From: a virus
Strand: one strand, 5' to 3'
DNA length: 20,778 bases
IMG/VR virus record: IMGVR_UViG_3300045118_000160
Span: 1 to 20,778 of that record
Shown: piece after piece, positions 113-14,575 of the stretch
How the letters are laid out: every line of letters starts with the position of its first letter
Position numbering within the stretch: position 1 is the first letter of the stretch
Position numbers and translations under genes: made by a program
Notes under the pieces: generated by a model
What the model saw: the letters and a program-made list of their open reading frames with translations, nothing else
Told to the model about the DNA's origin: nothing
Database searches by the model: none

Positions 113-652
113 CTAGGACTCACTCTTGTCACCCCTGATTGCGCCGCCGAGTCCGCGCCCGACCGACTGTCCGTCGATCGCGCCTGGACGTGACCCGTAG
201 TGCGCTTCGGTCATGGCCCGCGCTCGACACTCGGGTTGGGCGCAGACCTCGCGCGCCGTGCCCCGCTGCGTCAGGGCGCTGTTGCGATGGCCTCGTGGAC
301 AGACCCACTCGCCGCCCGTGAACCGATGCGCCCTTGAACGGCGCTGTCGTTGCGCTGCGGCCGAGTCGTGGTCCCTTGTCGTGGTGACGGTGCGGGGGCG
401 CAACCTGCCCGTGCTCGTGTGGTAGTCGCACGCCCGGTCGGTGGCCGCGTCGGTCCTGATCCAGGTGTGTCCCGTGGCCTCGCGGTACAGTGTGCGCGGC
501 TGCTCGACCCACGCTCCCGAGTGGTCGATGCCGCCGAGGTAGGGTCGTGTTGTGACGTCCGGCTCGATGTTGTTCAGGTCGCAGCAGACGTAGTTGGACA
601 GCTCGCGGGCGCCGATGTGGTAGTGGATGCAGCCACGGTGACCGCGCTTCAT
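113..652 (-). CDS. Hypothetical protein with a C-terminal Cys/His cluster
   Basis: This frame encodes 179 residues. The ATG at 652-650 overlaps the TGA of the RusA gene (ATGA), so the two are probably translationally coupled; the ribosome site is weak (GGGGAAGCAGG), as expected for a coupled start. The N-terminal third is rich in Cys and His (MKRGHRGCIHYH, YVCCDLNN) and the C-terminal third has a CPRGH...CAQPEC arrangement that could bind zinc. The middle is Arg/Thr-rich and looks poorly structured. I do not recognise the family. It is last or second-to-last in the leftward replication operon within this window, so a DNA-metabolism role is plausible but only inferred from position. Confidence 0.6.
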   Translation of the reverse strand: MKRGHRGCIHYHIGARELSNYVCCDLNNIEPDVTTRPYLGGIDHSGAWVEQPRTLYREATGHTWIRTDAATDRACDYHTSTGRLRPRTVTTTRDHDSAAAQRQRRSRAHRFTGGEWVCPRGHRNSALTQRGTAREVCAQPECRARAMTEAHYGSRPGAIDGQSVGRGLGGAIRGDKSES

Positions 653-1170
653 GCCTGCTTCCCCACGATCCGCGTCACGATGACCTCCGTGTGCGCCTCC
701 TCGCCAACCGCCGCGTAGACCCGCCGCGACCCGTCCCAGTTGTCGATCCGGCAGTCGTCCGTCCAGAGCCCCGCCTTCGTGCAGCCGTCCGCGACCGCCT
801 TTAGCACGTTGTCGAGGTCCGGCTTCGACTCGTATCGCATCCGGTGTTCGCTCGCGTGCAGGAGCGCCCCGGTGCGCTTCGACCGTTCCAGTAGTCGCTT
901 CGGTCGCGGGAATACGGCCAGGACCAGCACGGAGTAGAGCGCGTCCATCGGCCAGTCGTGCGGACGGGCCAAGGACGCCAGGTGACAGACGAGGTTCTGG
1001 TATGAGGCGGTCGCGGGCGTGTTTCTGGCGGACGCATGACCGCAGACGGTGGACAACTTGACCGCCTTGCCCACGGGTGGCCCCGGGACGCGGAAGCAGA
1101 TCGAGACGGTCGCGTCGTAGAGGGTCGATTCGTCCGCGGGGGTGAACAGGGGTTGCCCGGTGTCGGTCAT
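649..1170 (-). CDS. rusA: RusA-like Holliday junction resolvase
   Basis: The product of 173 residues resembles RusA-family endonucleases, dimeric Mg-dependent enzymes that cut Holliday junctions and branched DNA made during phage replication and recombination. The N-terminal strand has the family look (FRVPGPPVGK, residues 26-34). The catalytic acidic motif is PDLDN at 117-121 (D118, D120), followed by a third acidic site in WTDD at 136-139, where RusA needs its last aspartate. The length is somewhat above the roughly 120 residues of E. coli RusA because of an extended N-terminus. The ATG follows an AGGAG ribosome site and overlaps the stop of the preceding gene. It is placed downstream of initiator and helicase, a common phage arrangement for processing replication intermediates before packaging. 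Confidence 0.88.
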   Translation of the reverse strand: MTDTGQPLFTPADESTLYDATVSICFRVPGPPVGKAVKLSTVCGHASARNTPATASYQNLVCHLASLARPHDWPMDALYSVLVLAVFPRPKRLLERSKRTGALLHASEHRMRYESKPDLDNVLKAVADGCTKAGLWTDDCRIDNWDGSRRVYAAVGEEAHTEVIVTRIVGKQA

Positions 1171-1406
1171 GGCTTAGGCTCCTCTGCACTCTTGTTCCAG
1201 TAGTCGCACCGTAGGTCGTTGTCTCTCCACGGGTCGGTCCTCAGATATGCGCGACAGACCTCCCGCGCCTTGTCGATGGCTCCCACGAGGGCGATCATCG
1301 CTCCCACCCGCTCGCCCTGTAGCGCCTCGCGTGAGTTGACAGCTACCGACAACTCCATCGCCGCCTCTTCCCGTACACACTCTAGTCGTTCAAGCAATTC
1401 GTTCAT
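1167..1406 (-). CDS. Small hypothetical protein, mainly helical
   Basis: This gene encodes 79 residues and starts MNELLERLECVREEAA. The first 55 residues look like a continuous amphipathic helix or coiled coil (repeated E, R, L and A), followed by RTDPWRDNDLRCDYWNKS and the tail AEEPKP. Start and stop both use ATGA overlaps, with the DnaB gene upstream and rusA downstream, and an AAGGAG site lies 8 bases before the ATG. The C-terminal EPKP codons also supply the SD of rusA, and the upstream helicase ends with the same EPKP and nearly the same DNA. The family is not recognised; position in the replication operon suggests an accessory to helicase or resolvase. Confidence 0.75.
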   Translation of the reverse strand: MNELLERLECVREEAAMELSVAVNSREALQGERVGAMIALVGAIDKAREVCRAYLRTDPWRDNDLRCDYWNKSAEEPKP

Positions 1407-2743
1407 GGCTTCGGCTCCTTCTCCACCTGTAGGATCTGCTGCAACGCACGGTTGAACCGCAACTCCACACGCCCCGTAGGACCGTTCCGCTGCTTCCGCA
1501 GGAACAGCGTCATCTCCGACAACTGCGTCTTCTCCTCCTGCCAGTCCTTGCGCCACAGCATCATCACGTTGTCCGCGTCGTTCTCTATCGCCCCAGACTC
1601 GCGCAGGTCCCGTAGCGTCGGCTCCGGGTTCTTGTTTCCTGACTTCGGAGCGCGGGACAACTGCGACAGGGCGAGAACGTGGACCCGCAGGTCCATCGCA
1701 AGGATCTTCAGTGCCCGGGAGATAGCCGCGACCTCCCGCTCCCGCGACTTGTCCCGCTCGTCCGGGGTCACGAGTTGGAGGTAGTCGATCATCAGCAGGC
1801 CGTTCCCGCGGGGCAGCGACTTCGCCAACCCGTACAACTCCCGCGGCTTGACCCCCGGCTTCTGCACGAAGTCGAGCGGCAGGGTCCGCAGCAGGTTCGC
1901 GTGGCCCTCCAACGCTTCGATCTCGCCCGCGCCTAGTACCCCCGACCGCAACCGGGACGCCTCGATACCCGCGATCATCGCCAAGATCCGATCGCTCAGT
2001 TGGTCGTTGCCCATCTCCAACGAGGCGACCTGGACGCAGGCTCCCGTCCGCGCCGCATGGATCGCCATCGTCAGCCCGACCGCGGACTTCCCCACGCTCG
2101 ACTGCGCCGCGAGGATGGTTACGTCCCCGGCCCGCAACCCGCCGGTCAAGTAGTCGAGCAGGGGCCAAGGCGTGCCGATGCCTTGGAACCGCTCGCCGCG
2201 GTCTTTCTTCTCACGGATGGCCTGGACGTGGCCTGCCACGACTGCCCCGATCGCCTCCACGGGTAGCTCGCGGTCGGCGCTCTTGACCGCCTTTTCCATG
2301 GCCTCGCGCATCTCGCGGATGTCCAACCCCGAGGTCCCGAGCAGCATCAACGCCTGCTGCGCGTACCGGCGTCGGGCCGCGGCGTCCCGCACGAGGCGGG
2401 AGTAGTAGGGGATGGACGACGCGGACCCCGGCCAGTCCTCGCACAGCACTTTCGCCAAGTAGGGGTAGCCGCCGATCTCCTGCAACTTAGACCCGAGCGC
2501 GGTTGCGACCGCCGGGGGTTGCGGCACTCCCTCGGGGTCTTTCAGCACCGTTTCAAGCGCATCGTAGAGGATCTGGTGCTTGGGGTCGTAGTAGTCGGCG
2601 CGGGCCGTGAGGGACAGGATCTTTTCGGCGTCCTCGCGGGGTCCGAGCAGGGCCGCGCCGAGCAGGGAAAGCTCCGCGTGGGGCGCGGTCACGTCCTCGA
2701 CGGCCACGAGGTCGAACAGGCCGACCGACTTCATGCGGGGCAT
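1403..2743 (-). CDS. dnaB: Replicative DNA helicase, DnaB family
   Basis: The 446-residue product is the ring helicase that unwinds DNA at the phage fork. The N-terminal DnaB domain covers about residues 18-125 (PHAELSLLGAALL near the start), then a linker, then the RecA-like ATPase from about 185. Walker A is AAQSSVGKS at 212-220, Walker B is LLMIDYLQLV at 316-325, the ALSQLSR segment at 358-364 matches DnaB motif H3, and KQRNGPTG at 418-425 corresponds to the arginine-finger loop. A start at 2743 is preferred over ATG 2734 because a strong GGGGAGG site lies 5 bases before it, although 2734 would give the usual ATGA overlap with the initiator stop. The gene directly follows the initiator/loader gene, so loading of this helicase at the phage origin is the natural reading. 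Confidence 0.95.
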   Translation of the reverse strand: MPRMKSVGLFDLVAVEDVTAPHAELSLLGAALLGPREDAEKILSLTARADYYDPKHQILYDALETVLKDPEGVPQPPAVATALGSKLQEIGGYPYLAKVLCEDWPGSASSIPYYSRLVRDAAARRRYAQQALMLLGTSGLDIREMREAMEKAVKSADRELPVEAIGAVVAGHVQAIREKKDRGERFQGIGTPWPLLDYLTGGLRAGDVTILAAQSSVGKSAVGLTMAIHAARTGACVQVASLEMGNDQLSDRILAMIAGIEASRLRSGVLGAGEIEALEGHANLLRTLPLDFVQKPGVKPRELYGLAKSLPRGNGLLMIDYLQLVTPDERDKSREREVAAISRALKILAMDLRVHVLALSQLSRAPKSGNKNPEPTLRDLRESGAIENDADNVMMLWRKDWQEEKTQLSEMTLFLRKQRNGPTGRVELRFNRALQQILQVEKEPKP

Positions 2744-3753
2744 GACGCCTCCCCTTGCTGTAGGGACTCGTACCTGCGGATCCATTGGGCGCAGGCGCGG
2801 TCGCGGAGTTCCTGTCCGTACTCGCGGATGGCGCGGAGCGCGCGTTCTGGGTCGGGGTCGATGGCTTCTAGGCAGACCTTCGCGCGGAAGTCGTCGTCGA
2901 TCAGGATCGTGACTCCTGCGGAGCGGGCGTCTTCGTCGTCGTTGAGGGCGAGTTTCAAGGCTTTGTTCCATGACTCAGTTGAGTTGCCATTCGCTTTGAT
3001 GCCGTTGGTGACGGGCGCTTGACCGAACGAACGATCGTACTTCCCGTCCATCAGCGAAACGTGGTTGTCTGCCCCGTTCTTGTTCGTGGCCCACAGCCAC
3101 ACGAAGTCGCACCACTTGCCCTCGATGCAAGCCGGGGCGGTTCGCAGTCGCTCCATCACGCTACGCCAGTAGCCAAGGTCCGGTTGTTCCAACCAGCGGG
3201 TCTTGATGCGGGTGGCAAGCCGGTCGTTGACCTTGCGGACGGCGGGTTTCCCGAGGGATACTCCGATCTCGTTCCAGATCGCCACGAGTTCCTCGACAGG
3301 TACTTCCAGTTTCGGTTCGTTGGGCGCTTCGACATCCTTTTCTTTCGGTGAACCTACGCGATGTTGTTCACGAAACTTGCGTTGGCGGTTGCGATTGGCG
3401 ACACCATGACGGACCTTCCACCGCGTTACTGTAACGGTTACTGTAACGCCCGATGTAACGCCTAGCGTAACGCTTTCGGGTGCAAGTACCTCCCCACCGA
3501 CCCCGACCGTCATCCACCCCCACTTGACGAACAACCCGAGGTTGTAGACCGTCAACTCAGATGGCAGAAGTGCAAGCGCTGACAGCGTTCCCAGGTCGGT
3601 TGACGCCTCCCCTTCACCCTCCTCGACTACATCAAGGACGGCTGCCCACGCGGAAAGCAGTCCGTGACCTCTTGAGGCGACTTCGGCGCGGACTTTGGCA
3701 TCGCCTGTCAACTCCGAAAACCACCATTGGATCCACGGCCTTGTGCGTCTCAT
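2731..3753 (-). CDS. Phage replication initiator / helicase loader-like protein
   Basis: The protein has 340 residues. The N-terminal 90 or so (WIQWWFSELTGDAKVRAEVASRGHGLLSAWAAVLD) resemble the winged-helix-like N-terminal domain of phage replisome organisers. The C-terminal half has the pattern typical of phage helicase loaders, IWNEI...RKVND...WLEQPDLGYWRSVMERL...WCDFVWLW...LMDGKYDR. Between them is a low-complexity linker with a four-residue period (VTLG VTSG VTVT VTVT, about residues 93-108) whose DNA is a 12-bp iteron-like array. An origin inside the linker of the initiator gene is the organisation known from lambda O. The ATG overlaps the stop of the preceding small gene and dnaB follows with a 13-base overlap. 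Which domain binds DNA is inferred, not seen. Confidence 0.82.
   Translation of the reverse strand: MRRTRPWIQWWFSELTGDAKVRAEVASRGHGLLSAWAAVLDVVEEGEGEASTDLGTLSALALLPSELTVYNLGLFVKWGWMTVGVGGEVLAPESVTLGVTSGVTVTVTVTRWKVRHGVANRNRQRKFREQHRVGSPKEKDVEAPNEPKLEVPVEELVAIWNEIGVSLGKPAVRKVNDRLATRIKTRWLEQPDLGYWRSVMERLRTAPACIEGKWCDFVWLWATNKNGADNHVSLMDGKYDRSFGQAPVTNGIKANGNSTESWNKALKLALNDDEDARSAGVTILIDDDFRAKVCLEAIDPDPERALRAIREYGQELRDRACAQWIRRYESLQQGEASCPA
3422..3477. repeat. Iteron-like array of 12-bp repeats, candidate phage origin
   Basis: TGTAACG occurs at 3430, 3442 and 3454, and CGTAACG at 3466, exactly 12 bp apart, so four tandem 12-bp units fill 3430-3477. The first is preceded by CGTTAC, making CGTTACTGTAACG (3424-3436) a perfect palindrome with one central base, and the second sits in GGTTACTGTAACG. 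A fifth TGTAACG lies at 3785 just upstream of the initiator gene in almost the same 15-bp context. The array lies inside the initiator coding sequence and encodes its linker. By analogy with lambda O and oriLambda this is a likely initiator-binding origin, but no AT-rich unwinding element stands out beside it. Confidence 0.6.
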
Positions 3754-3890
3754 TGAGAAGTACCTTTGAACAACAGCGCGTTATTGTAACGCGCACTTGT
3801 CTTAAGATCTTGTAGCTCTCTTAAGATCTTGTAGCTCTCTAGGAGCTTCTTGATCTCTTGGAGCCGTCTGTACTGGATCCCACGGTTCAT
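3750..3890 (-). CDS. Small basic helical protein, 46 residues
   Basis: This short gene has a convincing ribosome site, AGGAGATCTCCT directly before ATG 3890, and its TGA overlaps the ATG of the initiator gene. The product begins MNRGIQYRRLQEIKKLLE and continues as a charged amphipathic helix before a short tail ending GTSQ. No family is recognised. Its DNA carries two exact 19-bp direct repeats (3801-3838) and a 19-bp palindrome (3776-3794), so the segment may serve as a regulatory site as much as a gene. The upstream gene also ends in an ATGA overlap with this start, which supports translation. Confidence 0.6.
   Translation of the reverse strand: MNRGIQYRRLQEIKKLLESYKILRELQDLKTSARYNNALLFKGTSQ
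3776..3794. promoter_or_regulatory. Perfect palindrome matching the iterons, candidate operator or origin site
   Basis: GCGCGTTA at 3776-3783 and TAACGCGC at 3787-3794 are exact reverse complements around TTG. The inner 15 bases CGCGTTATTGTAACG (3777-3791) differ at one base from CGCGTTACTGTAACG at 3422-3436 in the iteron array about 355 bp away. It lies 23 bp upstream of the initiator start codon. The shared core suggests the same protein binds both places; autoregulation by the initiator or loop formation is inferred. Confidence 0.55.
3801..3838. repeat. Two exact 19-bp tandem direct repeats
   Basis: CTTAAGATCTTGTAGCTCT occurs at 3801-3819 and again at 3820-3838 with no mismatch. Each copy contains the palindrome AAGATCTT. 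The unit length is not a multiple of three, so within the 46-residue gene the two copies are read in different frames; selection on DNA rather than protein, or a very recent duplication, would explain exact identity. The repeat begins 6 bp from the iteron-like palindrome and is more AT-rich than its surroundings. Confidence 0.75.
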
Positions 3891-4138
3891 AGGAGATCTC
3901 CTACCGGCACCGTGAGGACCATCACCCGAACGGTTCCGAAAGGGCACTTGGGATGACGGATGGGGAAAGGGCAGTGACGATCGATCGGGAGGATGTCCAT
4001 CATGTAAGTGCAGGCCCGCTGCCCTTCTCGCATGGACAAGTAGCGGCACTCCCCAACGTCGCTGGTGTTGCGGCAGTAGTTGTCGTCCAAGAAGAAGCGA
4101 TCGAACTTGATCCGCGGTTTCCGACTGCGAGGTTTCAT
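3887..4138 (-). CDS. Small Cys-rich protein
   Basis: The product has 83 residues and starts MKPRSRKPRIKFDRFF behind a strong AGGAGG site 5 bases from ATG 4138; its TGA overlaps the next ATG. Five cysteines follow (YCRNTSDVGEC, then RAC, RHC and KCPFG) with two histidines near the last pair, suggesting a zinc- or iron-sulphur-binding fold. The C-terminus (VRVMVLTVPVGDLL) is hydrophobic. No family is recognised. It lies between the switch regulator and the replication genes, the position where phages often encode small host-takeover proteins, but this is inference. Confidence 0.7.
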   Translation of the reverse strand: MKPRSRKPRIKFDRFFLDDNYCRNTSDVGECRYLSMREGQRACTYMMDILPIDRHCPFPIRHPKCPFGTVRVMVLTVPVGDLL

Positions 4139-4176: not shown

Positions 4177-4410
4177 CTACGCCGCAGGAGCCGCCCGGTG
4201 TTCCTTGTAGATCGTCACGAGGTCGTCGGGCTTGATCCCGAGCGCAGCCGCGTACCCATTGAACCGCAGGCCGGACGGCACGCTGCCCTCCTCCCACGCG
4301 CGGATGTTGTGGATCTCGACTTTCAGGTCGCCGTCCAGACGCATCGCACGGGCGATGTCAGCCTGCGAACGGTTCCCACGCAGCTCGACCAACTTCTGAA
4401 CGGTCGCCAT
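4177..4410 (-). CDS. XRE/Cro-like helix-turn-helix regulator
   Basis: The 77-residue product is almost entirely one lambda-repressor-type DNA-binding domain. SQADIARAM (residues 15-23) fits the first helix of the HTH, followed after an insertion by IRAWEEGSVPSGLRF with the W-E-x-G turn typical of XRE proteins, then YAAALGIKPDDLV. There is no cleavable C-terminal domain, so it is Cro-sized rather than CI-sized. It is the first gene of the leftward operon, starting about 33 bases after the predicted transcription start with a GGAGGTTGAA ribosome site. It probably binds the inverted repeat between the two divergent promoters and so controls its own operon and the rightward one; that binding is inferred. 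Confidence 0.85.
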   Translation of the reverse strand: MATVQKLVELRGNRSQADIARAMRLDGDLKVEIHNIRAWEEGSVPSGLRFNGYAAALGIKPDDLVTIYKEHRAAPAA

Positions 4411-4449: not shown

Positions 4450-4478
4450 AAGATACGCGGTGCGGCGGCCGTTGTCAA
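4450..4478 (-). promoter_or_regulatory. Leftward sigma70-type promoter of the replication operon
   Basis: On the minus strand, TTGACA (4478-4473) and TATCTT (4455-4450) are separated by exactly 17 bases, a near-consensus sigma70 promoter. Transcription should begin near 4443, leaving a short leader before the regulator ATG at 4410. No other consensus pair as good lies near the operon start. Confidence 0.85.
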
Positions 4479-4495
4479 ATAAAAAAACTTGACAA
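4472..4495. promoter_or_regulatory. Inverted repeat between divergent -35 boxes, candidate operator
   Basis: TTGTCAA (4472-4478) and TTGACAA (4489-4495) form exact 7-bp arms around an A-rich 10-base centre. The arms contain the -35 hexamers of both divergent promoters, so one dimer of the adjacent XRE regulator bound here could shut off both directions. Because -35 hexamers placed head to head create such symmetry by themselves, the operator role is a hypothesis. Confidence 0.5.
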
Positions 4496-4517
4496 GGGTT
4501 TTGAACCGCGCTACATT
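4489..4517 (+). promoter_or_regulatory. Rightward sigma70-type promoter of the recombination/accessory operon
   Basis: TTGACA (4489-4494) and TACATT (4512-4517) are separated by 17 bases. The predicted start near 4524 gives an untranslated leader of about 200 bases before ATG 4727. This is the only strong promoter I see for the long plus-strand gene series. Confidence 0.85.
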
Positions 4518-8234: not shown

Positions 8235-8822
8235 ATGAAGCGCCCAGACTGGTTGCCGGAAGCATGGATCTCGATGTGCGACCTAGTGGACGAACTCGGC
8301 GGGGGATGCGCGTCATGGATGTCGCGCTCCCTTCAACGGGGATCGTGCGTCAAGATCGGGAGCAGCATTTTTATTTCGCCAGAGGAGGCGGACCGGCTCC
8401 GTGTGAAGCGAGGCAAGGTTCTCCCGCGCGTCGTCGCTACAACTTCACCAATTCCGACTGATTCCTGGGTCCCAGCGATGGTGGACTTGGCGCGAGAGGG
8501 TTTCGAGGGAACTTGGCGCTCCGTTGTTCGTCGCTTGAAAGCCAGGCACATAGATTGTCCGCCCCCCTTGGCGTTCGTGCTCTCGAAAGCCATCATTGAG
8601 GCATTCACTGCGGCGGGCGTGTGTGTGACCACCGTCGTCCCCCCGCGTGAACACAAGGCCACAATCGTCCGCCTGTCTCTATCCGAAGGAGACTCATGCG
8701 GCGTGATGCCCCCCCTAGTGAAGACGGAGCATCCAATTGCTCTACCCGAGACCCCCGAGATCGTCTTGCTCCTGAAGAACATCGATGCTCACCTGGCCGA
8801 ACTCGTGCGAGTGTGGAGGTAG
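8235..8822 (+). CDS. Hypothetical protein, composition unlike its neighbours
   Basis: The 195-residue product is read from ATG 8235 with a GGAGG site 9 bases before it; an earlier in-frame ATG at 8202 has only a weak site and would add 11 residues. The N-terminal part (WISMCDLVDELGGG...VKIGSSIFISPEEADRLR) has the feel of a small winged-helix or excisionase-like domain that ends by reading a flag residue set, but I cannot confirm it. The middle (WRSVVRRLKARHIDCPPPLAFVLSKAIIEAFTAAGV) looks helical. The gene is less GC-rich at third positions than its neighbours and is preceded by a 59-base gap in an otherwise overlapping operon, which suggests a later insertion. Confidence 0.68.
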   Translation: MKRPDWLPEAWISMCDLVDELGGGCASWMSRSLQRGSCVKIGSSIFISPEEADRLRVKRGKVLPRVVATTSPIPTDSWVPAMVDLAREGFEGTWRSVVRRLKARHIDCPPPLAFVLSKAIIEAFTAAGVCVTTVVPPREHKATIVRLSLSEGDSCGVMPPLVKTEHPIALPETPEIVLLLKNIDAHLAELVRVWR

Positions 8823-8828
8823 GGTCTG

Positions 8829-9053
8829 ATGCTGTCCCCCCACGCCGAGGCAGTCCGCACCCGCGCCCGCGTCACTTCGGCGGGGGTCCGCGCGAGGATG
8901 GCTGCGGCGAAGGGCATGGAGACGGTCCGGCGTCGGGCGCTGTCGGCGGGTCTGATGCTGGCGTGCGTGGACGGTCCGGGGACGGTGCTGAGTACGGAGT
9001 CGCGGAGGATGCTGGAGCGGGCGATCGAGGTCGTGGCGGGGTTGGGGAGATGA
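8829..9053 (+). CDS. Small Ala/Arg-rich helical protein
   Basis: The 74-residue product starts at ATG 8829 with GGAGGTAGGG upstream and ends in an ATGA overlap with the methylase gene. It is predicted helical throughout (AVRTRARVTSAGVRARMAAA, ETVRRRALSAGL, SRRMLERAIEVVAGL). No motif is recognised. Coupling to the methylase suggests the two are made together. Confidence 0.62.
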   Translation: MLSPHAEAVRTRARVTSAGVRARMAAAKGMETVRRRALSAGLMLACVDGPGTVLSTESRRMLERAIEVVAGLGR

Positions 9054-10204
9054 CGGTGGGCAGCCTCGCATCCCCCTTCCCCTGGTTCGGCGGTAAGCGC
9101 CGCGCCGCGGCCGAAGTGTGGCAGGCGTTGGGCGACGTGGACCACTACATTGAGCCGTTCGCCGGTTCGCTCGCTGTCCTATTGAACCGCCCGACCGCGC
9201 CCAAAGTCGAGACGGTCAACGACCTCGACGGATACATCTGCAACTTCTGGCGAGCGATCCAACGCGACCCTGACGCCGTGGCCGATTGGTGCCTGTCGCC
9301 CGTCAACGAAATCGACCTGACCGCGCGGCACCGATGGTTGTGCGAGCGCGAGCGTAAGACCGCGTTCCTCGCCCGGATGCACGAAGACCCTGACTACCAC
9401 GACGCGAAGATCGCGGGCTGGTGGGTGTGGGGTATCTCGGCATGGATCGGGTCGAATTGGTGTACGGGCTGGTGGGATGGCGGGACCGGCGGCACGGACG
9501 TTCACCGCAAATTGCCCCACCTCGGGGACGGCGGCACGGGCGTTCACCGCAAATTGCCCCACCTCGGGACCGGCGGGAAGGGCGTTCACCGCCAGTTGCC
9601 CCACCTCGGGGACGGTGGGAAGGGCGGCACCGCCAGTTGCCCCACCTCGGGGACGGCGGGCTTTGGCGGGAAACTGCCGCGCATCGGAACCAACGGCGGC
9701 GGTGGAATCCATCGCAAAGAGCCGCACATCGGCGAGGCCGGAACCGATCCGTCCGACCTCACGAACGTCCGCCCCTACCTCCGCGCCCTCTCCGCTCGCC
9801 TGCGTTACGTCCGGGTCTGCTGCGGCGATTGGTCGCGAGTCTGTACCGAGGCGGTGTGGACCGACCTCGCGAAAGGCAACAAGCGGGCCGGCGTCTTCCT
9901 CGACCCACCTTACACCGTCGGCACCAAGGCTGACGACCTCTACGCTGCAGGCGGGGCCGGAGTCGCTGAGGCCGTCGCGGCATGGGCCTTCGCGAACGGA
10001 GACAACCCGCGCCTGCGAATCGTGCTCTGCGGGTACGAGGGCGAGCACGTCATCCCTCCGACGTGGCGGACGATTGAACGCAAGGAGAAAGGCGGCTACG
10101 CGAACACGGGCAAGGGCGAGAACGCGAACCGGCACCGGGAACGCCTGTGGTTGTCGCCGTCGTGTCTCGTCACGGAACGGGAACGGCAGGGGGTGATGTT
10201 GTGA
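9050..10204 (+). CDS. dam: Dam-type (D12) DNA adenine N6-methyltransferase with a Gly-rich repeat insert
   Basis: The 384-residue product has the D12-class order of motifs: SPFPWFGGKRRAA (8-20) for SAM binding, YIEPFAGSLAVLLNR (33-47) as motif I, NDLDGYICNFWRAI (57-70), and VFLDPPY (282-288) as catalytic motif IV. Family members usually have about 260-290 residues; the excess is a Gly/His-rich insert (about 143-232) encoded by tandem 42-bp repeats where the target-recognition region should lie. The family methylates adenine in short duplex sites, often to evade host restriction; the site here is unknown. ATG 9050 overlaps the preceding stop, but GTG 9056 has the better-spaced GGGGAG site and is equally possible. 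Confidence 0.88.
   Translation: MTVGSLASPFPWFGGKRRAAAEVWQALGDVDHYIEPFAGSLAVLLNRPTAPKVETVNDLDGYICNFWRAIQRDPDAVADWCLSPVNEIDLTARHRWLCERERKTAFLARMHEDPDYHDAKIAGWWVWGISAWIGSNWCTGWWDGGTGGTDVHRKLPHLGDGGTGVHRKLPHLGTGGKGVHRQLPHLGDGGKGGTASCPTSGTAGFGGKLPRIGTNGGGGIHRKEPHIGEAGTDPSDLTNVRPYLRALSARLRYVRVCCGDWSRVCTEAVWTDLAKGNKRAGVFLDPPYTVGTKADDLYAAGGAGVAEAVAAWAFANGDNPRLRIVLCGYEGEHVIPPTWRTIERKEKGGYANTGKGENANRHRERLWLSPSCLVTERERQGVML
9482..9648 (+). repeat. 42-bp minisatellite inside the Dam-like methylase gene
   Basis: Four head-to-tail units run 9482-9523, 9524-9565, 9566-9607 and 9608-9648, with lengths 42, 42, 42 and 41. The first three encode variants of GG-x-G-x-VHR-x-LPHLG-x. In the fourth, GTT before the CACCGCC block is reduced to GG, so its conserved DNA is read in another frame as TASCPTSG. 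A diverged continuation to about 9730 restores the original frame (GGKLPRIG, then IHRKEPHIG). Near-identity at DNA level with frame change points to duplication by slippage or recombination. Confidence 0.85.
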
Positions 10205-12720: not shown

Positions 12721-13442
12721 GTGACCACGGCGATCTGGTCCGCGTCGAGATGACCTTCGCGGACGGGTACAAGCAGGAACTTGTCGGGGCTGAAGCGCAG
12801 GCGTGGCTCGAAGACTGCAACGGGGCCGTCGAAATGGGCCGCATCCACGGTCGGGGGATGTTCCATCACGAGTGGCGCGAGGTTCCGGCCTCCGTCCCGC
12901 CCGCGACGCAGTACCCGCGATGCCCGCACTTCGGAGGAGGGTGTTGGGGGCCGTATTGGCCCTGTACGCGCCCAGCGGCGACGGCCTGCCAATGGCAGAT
13001 CCCCGAGTGCTGCCCGTCCACGTTCGGGGAGGCGCTACCGAACTGCCCCCGTCCCGCCCGTGCCGCAGTACCCGAGTGCCCGCAACCACACAAAAGGAGA
13101 TTTCTGATGGAACCGCGTTACCTGAACAACTGGAATCGCGAGCAAATGATCGCCGACTTCGATATCGCAGGGGCCGACCTGGACGGCTGCGAAATCTTGC
13201 TGGCGTCATACACCATTGAAGGCTACGAGGGTGAAGCATTCGTCTTATTCCGCAAGGGCGGCGAACTGTACCAAGTCAGCGGCTCGCACTGTTCCTACAT
13301 GGGTCTTGAGGGTCAGTGGTCGCCGGAACGCACCGTCGTCGCGGCGCTTCGTGGGTACCTGGACAAAGGTGGTTACGGCGTCCGCTATTACGCCAACGAA
13401 CTGCGCGCAGTTCTGGACGCGCTCGACGCGGAGGCAGTATGA
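12717..13442 (+). CDS. Hypothetical protein, probably two units joined in frame
   Basis: The 241-residue product starts at ATG 12717 behind GGAGG. Residues 1-60 form a small domain (VRVEMTFADGYKQELVG...HHEWREVPA). Residues 60-130 are Pro/Cys-rich with no clear fold (CPHFGGGCWGPYWPC, then more CP pairs). From M131 (ATG 13107) begins a compact unit that resembles a widespread phage hypothetical family: DGCEILLASYTIEGYEGEAFVLFRKGGELYQVSG is followed by SHCSYMGLEGQW and RTVVAALRGYL. The function of that family is unknown. The TGA overlaps the rtcB start. Either one long protein or two products are possible. Confidence 0.65.
   Translation: MSDHGDLVRVEMTFADGYKQELVGAEAQAWLEDCNGAVEMGRIHGRGMFHHEWREVPASVPPATQYPRCPHFGGGCWGPYWPCTRPAATACQWQIPECCPSTFGEALPNCPRPARAAVPECPQPHKRRFLMEPRYLNNWNREQMIADFDIAGADLDGCEILLASYTIEGYEGEAFVLFRKGGELYQVSGSHCSYMGLEGQWSPERTVVAALRGYLDKGGYGVRYYANELRAVLDALDAEAV
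13092..13109 (+). promoter_or_regulatory. Strong internal ribosome site and start for the C-terminal unit
   Basis: AAAAGGAGATTTCTG stands directly before ATG 13107, a better ribosome site than that of the full-length start. The product from here would be 111 residues, which fits the usual size of the recognisable phage family by itself. This suggests independent translation of the second half, whether or not the long form is also made. Confidence 0.6.
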
Positions 13443-14575
13443 CCCCCAAGACGTTCACTGGTTCGCAGGCTTCCTGCAAGGTGTTCGCGACCGACCTGGA
13501 ACCGACTGCGGAGACGCAGATCGCGACGTTCCTGGACTGCCCCGCCTTCGCGGGGTGCCAGATCCGCATTATGCCCGACGTCCATGCCGGCGCCGGAGCC
13601 GTGATCGGGTTCACGTCGCCAGTCGGGCCGGGCGTCTGCCCGAACGTGATCGGAGTGGACATCGGGTGCGGGGTGCTGGCGAACCGTGTCGGGATTGGCG
13701 ACGTGGTTTTCGCCGCTCTGGACGCCTACATCCGTAGGTACGTCCCGTCGGGGTTTGCGATCCATCAGCACCCACACACACTGACCGCCGAACTCGAACC
13801 CCTGCTTGAGGCCACGGGCGAGATCGCAACCCGCATTGGCGCGGACCCCGACAAGGTACGCCGGTCGCTCGGTACGCTCGGGGGCGGGAACCACTTCATC
13901 GAAGTCGGGCGCGCGGACTCGGACGGTGCCTTGTGGTTCGCCATCCATTCGGGGTCGCGCAACTTCGGTCTCCGTGTCGCAAAATGGCATCAGGACATCG
14001 CGAAGCGCGAGCGTCCCGAGTATGGACAGCTTGCGTACCTGACCGGCGACGCGGCAGACGCATACCTGCGCGACATGCGGATTGCGCAGAAGTTCGCGGA
14101 GGCCAACCGCACCATCATGGCGGCCACCCTTGCGGGATTCGACGGCTGGCCGCACGGCGCTAGCGACCCCCACGTGCAGGTGGAGTCGGTCCACAACTTC
14201 ATCGGCGACGACGGCATCATCCGCAAAGGCGCAATCCAGGCGCTCCCCGGACAGTGGGTCGTGATTCCCTGGAACATGCGAGACGGGATGATTCTCGGAA
14301 CCGGCTTCGGGAACGCCGACTGGAACTATTCGGCCCCGCATGGCGCCGGGCGCGTCATGGGCCGCAAGGAGGCGAAGCGGTCCCTGAGTGTGGCCGACTT
14401 CAAGACCACGATGCGCGACGCTGGCGTGTGGTCATCCTGCATCGGAGCCGACACGCTGGACGAGGCCCCGGTCGCGTACAAGCCTCGCGAGACGGTCGAG
14501 GCATGGTTGACGGAGACGGTCAGGATCGAGGATCGGATTCGACCCGTCTACAACTTCAAGGCGACGGGTGATTGA
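13439..14575 (+). CDS. rtcB: RtcB-type RNA ligase
   Basis: The 378-residue product carries the full RtcB signature. MPDVHAGAGAVIGFT (45-59) and IGVDIGCG (71-78, D74 and C77) start the metal site; GTLGGGNHF (145-153, H152), HSGSRNFG (170-177, H170) and SVHNF (250-254, H252) complete it. APHGAGRVMGR (299-309) holds H301, the residue that takes GMP. The family joins 2',3'-cyclic phosphate or 3'-phosphate RNA ends to 5'-OH ends using GTP and Mn, in tRNA splicing or RNA repair. All key residues are present, so activity is likely. In a phage the natural substrate would be tRNA or rRNA cut by host anticodon or toxin nucleases. The start overlaps the previous stop (ATGA). Confidence 0.95.
   Translation: MTPKTFTGSQASCKVFATDLEPTAETQIATFLDCPAFAGCQIRIMPDVHAGAGAVIGFTSPVGPGVCPNVIGVDIGCGVLANRVGIGDVVFAALDAYIRRYVPSGFAIHQHPHTLTAELEPLLEATGEIATRIGADPDKVRRSLGTLGGGNHFIEVGRADSDGALWFAIHSGSRNFGLRVAKWHQDIAKRERPEYGQLAYLTGDAADAYLRDMRIAQKFAEANRTIMAATLAGFDGWPHGASDPHVQVESVHNFIGDDGIIRKGAIQALPGQWVVIPWNMRDGMILGTGFGNADWNYSAPHGAGRVMGRKEAKRSLSVADFKTTMRDAGVWSSCIGADTLDEAPVAYKPRETVEAWLTETVRIEDRIRPVYNFKATGD

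Follow-up and report, generated by a model that had tools for sequence, protein, structure and literature searches.

Origins of replication that lie inside the gene of the phage's own initiator are already known in kind from lambda, SPP1 and 80alpha; for most phages the origin is, to our knowledge, not known. In the annotated record of lambda the binding array of ori-lambda falls within the coding sequence of its initiator O and is adjoined by AT-rich DNA; the iterons are about 18 bp long and of the ATCCCTCAAAACGAGGGA type. For replication, lambda relies on loader P and the host DnaB. The record of phage 80alpha annotates a putative rep_origin inside the gene for gp20, and the TP901-1 replication protein gene (Rep) contains repeats of the CCAGATGTGG type. 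Members of Phage_rep_org_N (PF09681), including the proteins of Listeria phage A500 and Streptococcus phage SM1, combine a winged helix, a basic helix, a GTAACG array and a DnaD-like C-terminal part. The replisome organizer G38P of SPP1 exemplifies the in-gene origin of a Gram-positive phage, oriL being located in gene 38 (PMC5499656). In P1, synonymous recoding has been applied to repL (PMC9948254).

The stretch analysed here, referred to as the window, is an IMG/VR viral record of 20,778 bases which represents a fragment of a genome. Judged from its sequence, the region 3422-3473 is very probably the initiator-binding array of a phage replication origin, situated in the gene for a DnaD/O-like replisome organizer that the phage itself encodes. 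The genes and sites concerned are:

649-1170, minus strand (the initiator's direction): RusA-like resolvase (Pfam RusA, E 2e-12)
1403-2743, minus strand: DnaB-type replicative helicase, downstream of the initiator (Pfam DnaB_C, E 5e-64; PHROG 19, E 1e-78)
2731-3753, minus strand: initiator or replisome-organizer gene, 340 amino acids (PHROG 345 and PHROG 5810 matches)
3364-3420, minus strand: segment coding for the predicted basic helix (residues 112-130), with the core N120-R-N-R123-Q124-R-K-F127-R128
3422-3473, plus strand: putative in-gene iteron array, six GTAAC/GTTAC half-sites in a 12-bp phase, coding for residues 94-111
3422-3448, plus strand: two divergent GTTAC-n-GTAAC palindromes within the array, half-site starts 6 bp apart
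3750-3890, minus strand: 46-amino acid ORF holding the palindrome and the 19-bp repeats, with an ATGA overlap at the initiator start
3776-3794: candidate palindromic initiator box GCGCGTTATTGTAACGCGC, a near-copy of the array's first unit and a possible RNA hairpin
3795-3844: 50-bp stretch of lowest stability in the entire window (z +4.69), bordering on the palindrome; putative DNA-unwinding element
3800-3837: two perfect 19-bp direct repeats TCTTAAGATCTTGTAGCTC, inside the unstable stretch
4450-4478, minus strand: promoter-like site of the leftward operon, TTGACA-17-TATCTT (2 sites in the region versus 0.3 expected)

The window shares with lambda the position of the array in the initiator's own coding sequence and perhaps AT-rich DNA beside it. 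It differs in that the lambda array contains neither GTAACG nor GTCACG, and in that this phage encodes its own DnaB where lambda uses P and the host helicase. The combination of a strong O-like match and lambda-type iterons, which would place the window in the Lambda O family proper, was not found. The likeness to SPP1 is that of an in-gene origin and is taken from the published description. Both 80alpha gp20 and TP901-1 Rep resemble the window in the location of their origin or repeats, but the former has other repeats and no GTAACG, while the latter gene also lacks GTAACG and its product differs in N-terminal sequence. As to PF09681, the window protein has no match to this family, and its array precedes the basic helix, whereas in PF09681 it mostly follows.

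The array reads CGCGTTACTGTAACGGTTACTGTAACGCCCGATGTAACGCCTAGCGTAACGC. Three copies of TGTAACG (3430, 3442 and 3454) and one of CGTAACG (3466) had been described in exact 12-bp steps, and direct reading bears this out. The half-sites are CGTTAC at 3424, GTAACG at 3431, GTTAC at 3437 and GTAACG at 3443, 3455 and 3467. GTAACG or its complement CGTTAC occurs nine times in the 20.8 kb: five copies in the array, within 49 bp, one in the palindrome and three scattered. Two such words within 52 bp never arise in second-order Markov sequences and, when synonymous codons are shuffled with the protein kept constant, five or more sites in the array have a p of 0.0016. The initiator gene thus carries five phased GTNACG sites, where at least three delimit the group of genes considered below, and they are direct repeats at the DNA level inside the initiator's own gene. 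The sequence-only reading had taken the array to encode a VTxx-repeated linker; the repeat is indeed encoded (SVTLGVTSGVTVTVTVTRW), but the segment is predicted to form the wing loop and last strand, leaving no free linker.

The initiator matched PHROG 345 ("replication initiation O-like", E 2e-6, residues 136-201) and PHROG 5810 ("replication initiation protein", E 1e-4). There was no match in Pfam, and hence the PF09681 gathering score was not reached. No close homologue was found in viral contigs or genome contigs, and none above noise in annotated phages; a DnaB scan for relatives gave one remote locus and a genome scan with alignment A5 one locus. The comparison therefore had to draw on distant relatives of like architecture. 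AlphaFold2, using 44 remote sequences, predicted with modest confidence (mean pLDDT 66) a winged helix at about residues 12-110, the basic helix at 112-130 and a helical C-terminal part; a fold search with this model returned nothing under E 0.001. For one relative (L219, 79 sequences) the mean pLDDT was 83, and a winged helix is followed by a continuous helix, residues 106-133, which contains the basic segment (pLDDT about 90), then by the array-encoded linker 134-167 and a DnaD-like C-terminal domain (2zc2, DnaD). In most relatives the array lies after the helix, not before it. R123 and R128 of the window protein are among the most conserved columns of the 44 initiators. The basic helix of the window, NRNRQRKFRE, is of the type that accompanies GTAACG: the core R-[VQT]-x-x-[YFH]-R appears in the predicted helix as R123-Q124-R-K-F127-R128.

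In its core, NxxRQxxFR, and in the phage half-site GTTAC, this helix recalls the bZIP proteins Pap1 and Yap1. The Pap1 basic region (N86-A89-Q90-R94) reads TTAC half-sites in TTACGTAA (PMC3111461). The phage helix differs in being attached to a winged helix, and no leucine zipper was identified; a continuous basic helix is predicted for both L219 and the window protein. A bacterial bZIP-like repressor, RptR, has been proposed (PMC12255303). We regard the likeness as an analogy and do not claim common descent.

A raw search for the DNA pattern was rejected as a sample because it mixed origins with protein repeats of the GNVT type (GNVTGNVT in tail-fibre-like ORFs); all statistics are therefore from initiators sampled by protein only (alignment A1, 55 viral loci; A2, 80; 82 non-redundant genes). 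The A1 search peptide and one of the two A2 peptides lie in the basic helix, so that these samples are conditioned on the helix but not on the DNA word; the A3 and A8 search peptides cover the winged-helix domain only. In the 82 genes GTAACG ranks first among 2080 canonical hexamers, with 336 copies against 16.3 expected from the flanks; some 23 of the 336 (frame RY) may be helix codons themselves. It is present in 72 of the 82. In a third family, A8, obtained with other peptides (79 new loci, 39 non-redundant genes), GTAACG again came first (143 versus 10.3). It sits in the linker, and its density is about 17 per kb at 300-500 bp of the gene and about 0.25 per kb elsewhere. Spacings of 4 bp (GTAACGTTAC), of 7-8 bp (CGTTACnGTAACG, which the window also has) and of 10-12 bp predominate among relatives, and the divergent 7/8-bp hexamer spacing is common. 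Named phages with the array are Listeria A500, Streptococcus SM1 and Bradyrhizobium ppBjS10J-1. As a negative control, two or more sites were found in only one of 29 top PHROG 345 genes from 398 genomes. In A8 (L379-L457) there is also a second GTAACG cluster 100-200 bp from the initiator start, in winged-helix codons, which accounts for 60 of the 143 sites.

In most relatives the array is directly followed by an unstable stretch. Over 69 loci the 50 bp directly after it are the least stable around, with a mean z of +1.91 compared to -0.4 to +0.4 in other bins, and the 95th percentile of instability is reached there in 91% of cases versus 34% of control positions. The corresponding value for A8 is +1.71. 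This succession of array and unstable stretch in the relatives is the lambda-type plan at the level of sequence. In the window instability is slight over the 50 bp that follow the in-gene array (z +0.93), while the maximum of z +4.69 abuts the palindrome. The 15-bp sequence CGCGTTACTGTAACG at 3422-3436 recurs with one mismatch at 3777-3791, as the sequence-only reading had noted, and a match of this quality occurred in none of 100 shuffles; GCGCGTTATTGTAACGCGC is likewise a perfect 8-3-8 palindrome, of which 0.01 are expected even with up to two mismatches. To judge from these sequences the palindrome resembles an origin box with an unwinding element at its side. As the stretch of greatest instability starts at 3795, immediately past the palindrome, a split origin is favoured, consisting probably of the array and, about 320 bp away, the box 3776-3794 at the unwinding element 3795-3844. 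A cluster of GATC near 3800-3900 proved to be ordinary, 49 of 100 simulations having as much.

For the palindrome alone, a role as an RNA hairpin (attenuator or translational control) in place of a protein site is unlikely, though it is the alternative that fares best. The predicted 8-bp stem with a 5-bp extension (z -2.1) would stand about 20 nucleotides upstream of the initiator start codon, and the palindrome is listed as terminator-like; however, chance alone would give about one terminator-like site in the stretch, and a hairpin does not account for the 15-bp near-copy of an array unit.

It is less probable still that array and palindrome are transcriptional operators of a protein which is mainly an autoregulator and represses by looping. 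Palindromic sites would suit such a role, as would the pairs of sites that two relatives, L192 and L161, have shortly before the initiator start. The palindrome, however, is not in an untranslated leader but inside the 46-amino acid ORF, and no promoter-like site was found between it and the initiator. The sole good leftward promoter-like site, at 4478-4450, is some 660 bp upstream, and the genes between it and the initiator are closely packed as an operon, with ATGA overlaps at 3887-3890 and 3750-3753. Paired upstream sites occur in only 2 of 66 related genes, so that an operator is not a general feature, and the arrays of the relatives lie well inside the gene, next to unstable DNA. The earlier suggestion that the palindrome serves as a promoter operator was accordingly not upheld. 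L192 is unusual in that an array of three GTAACGTTAC palindromes, spaced by 19 bp, precedes the initiator start by 16-59 bp, which is not the case in most relatives.

Several other features of the window deserve mention. Back-to-back promoter-like sites at 4450-4517 (TTGACA-17-TATCTT leftward, TTGACA-17-TACATT rightward) lie near the cumulative GC skew minimum and are probably the early control region, beside an HTH gene at 4177-4410. The skew minimum itself, at about 4.25-4.5 kb, is confounded by gene direction, and the contig is a fragment. A 42-bp in-frame tandem repeat at 9482-9660 (4.3 copies, score 251, peptide GGTGVHRKLPHLGD) is part of ORF 8696-10204 on the plus strand, which resembles a DNA adenine methylase; by eye, the ORF at 13316-14575 resembles an RtcB-type RNA ligase. 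Rfam and tRNA searches gave no matches.

What reads the word in the array is suggested by its variation. Staphylococcus prophage phiPV83 has a like array in which GTCACG replaces GTAACG and, because of this, 80 more initiators were sampled with winged-helix peptides only. In all 106 classifiable genes the iteron can be predicted from the residue that comes after a conserved arginine of the basic segment, V, Q or T occurring with GTAACG and K or N with GTCACG/GTGACG. On a finer count K accompanies GTCACG in 21 of 24 genes (the other three have fewer than two sites) and N accompanies GTGACG in 13 of 14; the exceptions are L132 (AERMRRHRDK) and L151 (AERMKRHRDK) with GTGACG, L158, which is a mixed case, and certain genes that have no more than one site. 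On a winged-helix tree there are at least 18 changes of DNA class, the helix always changing too; strongly supported branches leave only four independent pairs, all agreeing, which alone give a p of 0.125. In eight disjoint pairs with winged helices 86-99% identical, helix and iteron both differ. L309/L277 and L250/phiPV83 each combine a GTAACG-type and a GTCACG-type initiator whose winged helices are almost the same. Since the iteron changes in step with the basic helix, it is probably this helix that recognizes the word. Within a family, joint exchange is to be expected, because helix and array adjoin in most relatives, but linkage does not explain the recurrence of the same pairing across families: V/Q/T-type helices go with GTAACG in A1, A2/A3, A8 and the window, and GTGAC accompanies K-type helices both in A2/A3 and in A8 (L383, L385). 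Some K-type helices pair with GTCCGG, and the pairing is thus not set by one residue alone.

Two further observations were made among these genes. The A8 linkers (L379-L457) contain arrays of GTTGC, GTGGC, GTCCGG, TGCGGA or GTGAC, each with its own basic-helix type, and those with alternative words are mostly followed by purine-rich DNA. An HNH-like insert (CxYCG...LDH...ENCVAC) is found directly after the basic helix, the usual start of the array, in L289, L295, L297, L327, L166, L170, L383 and L385; several of these initiators (e.g. L295 and L297) keep iteron-type sites in the gene.

We tentatively propose a portable code by which, in a large class of phage initiators, a bZIP-like basic helix recognizes the in-gene origin. 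Helix and array would form an exchangeable cassette that changes replication type. To this idea as a whole we give slightly less than even credence. As deduced from the sequences, the code would pair R-[VQT]xx[YFH] with GTTAC, R-K with GTGAC (in two families), R-N with GTGACG-type words, R-MxxS with GTTGC or GTGGC, and others with GTCCGG or TGCGGA. By analogy this resembles the specificity of the eukaryotic bZIP proteins, Pap1 and Yap1 recognizing TTAC and C/EBP the word TTGC. The clear shuffling of winged-helix and basic-helix/array parts among phages might also be expected of a host-factor site or a site of recombination between phage modules; this is very improbable, given that the same word is found across loci of about 32-71% GC, in phages of both Firmicutes and Proteobacteria, and follows the helix of a phage protein.

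GTAACG is used in five combinations of reading frame and strand (VT, xN, NVT, TL/AL and RY); the sixth would give an in-frame TAA. The word is thus read in every stop-free frame, from which it follows that what is conserved is the DNA rather than the peptide. Homologues keeping the peptide repeat and losing the DNA repeat had been named as the finding that would speak against an origin, and the opposite was seen, the DNA word being kept while the peptide changed. That the linker was selected as a protein, the DNA repeat being a by-product of codon use, can be dismissed almost entirely: the window array does code for VT repeats, and some genes of the DNA-pattern search are protein repeats (GNVTGNVT), but synonymous shuffling with the proteins kept yields 87 +/- 8 copies of GTAACG (maximum 111 over 200) against the 336 seen, relatives use the five frames, and the L219 linker is disordered according to the model.

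An iteron-type origin inside the initiator gene, as the sequence-only reading had it, is therefore well supported by the comparison, that is by the word, its frames, its position, the flanking unstable DNA and the coupling to the basic helix. In such an origin the basic helix after the winged-helix domain (residues 112-130, core NRNRQRKFR) would probably be the part of the initiator that reads the GTAAC half-sites. A number of initiator molecules could line up along one side of the double helix, as the 11-12 bp phase would allow, open the unstable DNA nearby and recruit the DnaB helicase of the adjacent gene. In the window the bound initiators may also bridge the array and the palindrome, for which the sequence-only reading had envisaged a possible loop of about 355 bp.

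In the open literature searched we did not find a word shared across families, its independence of frame or the coupling of helix and iteron, nor a phage origin paper dealing with the palindromes GTAACGTTAC, GTTACGTAAC, GTTACAGTAAC and their relatives; single arrays may have been mentioned earlier. A word that marks the origin in several families of initiators would allow origins to be read from sequence, and its coupling to the helix names the residues that probably read it. Replication-type specificity is known for lambdoid phages, and the coupling makes it directly testable. One stretch of DNA would here be origin and coding sequence at once, the frame being free to change while the word stays constant.
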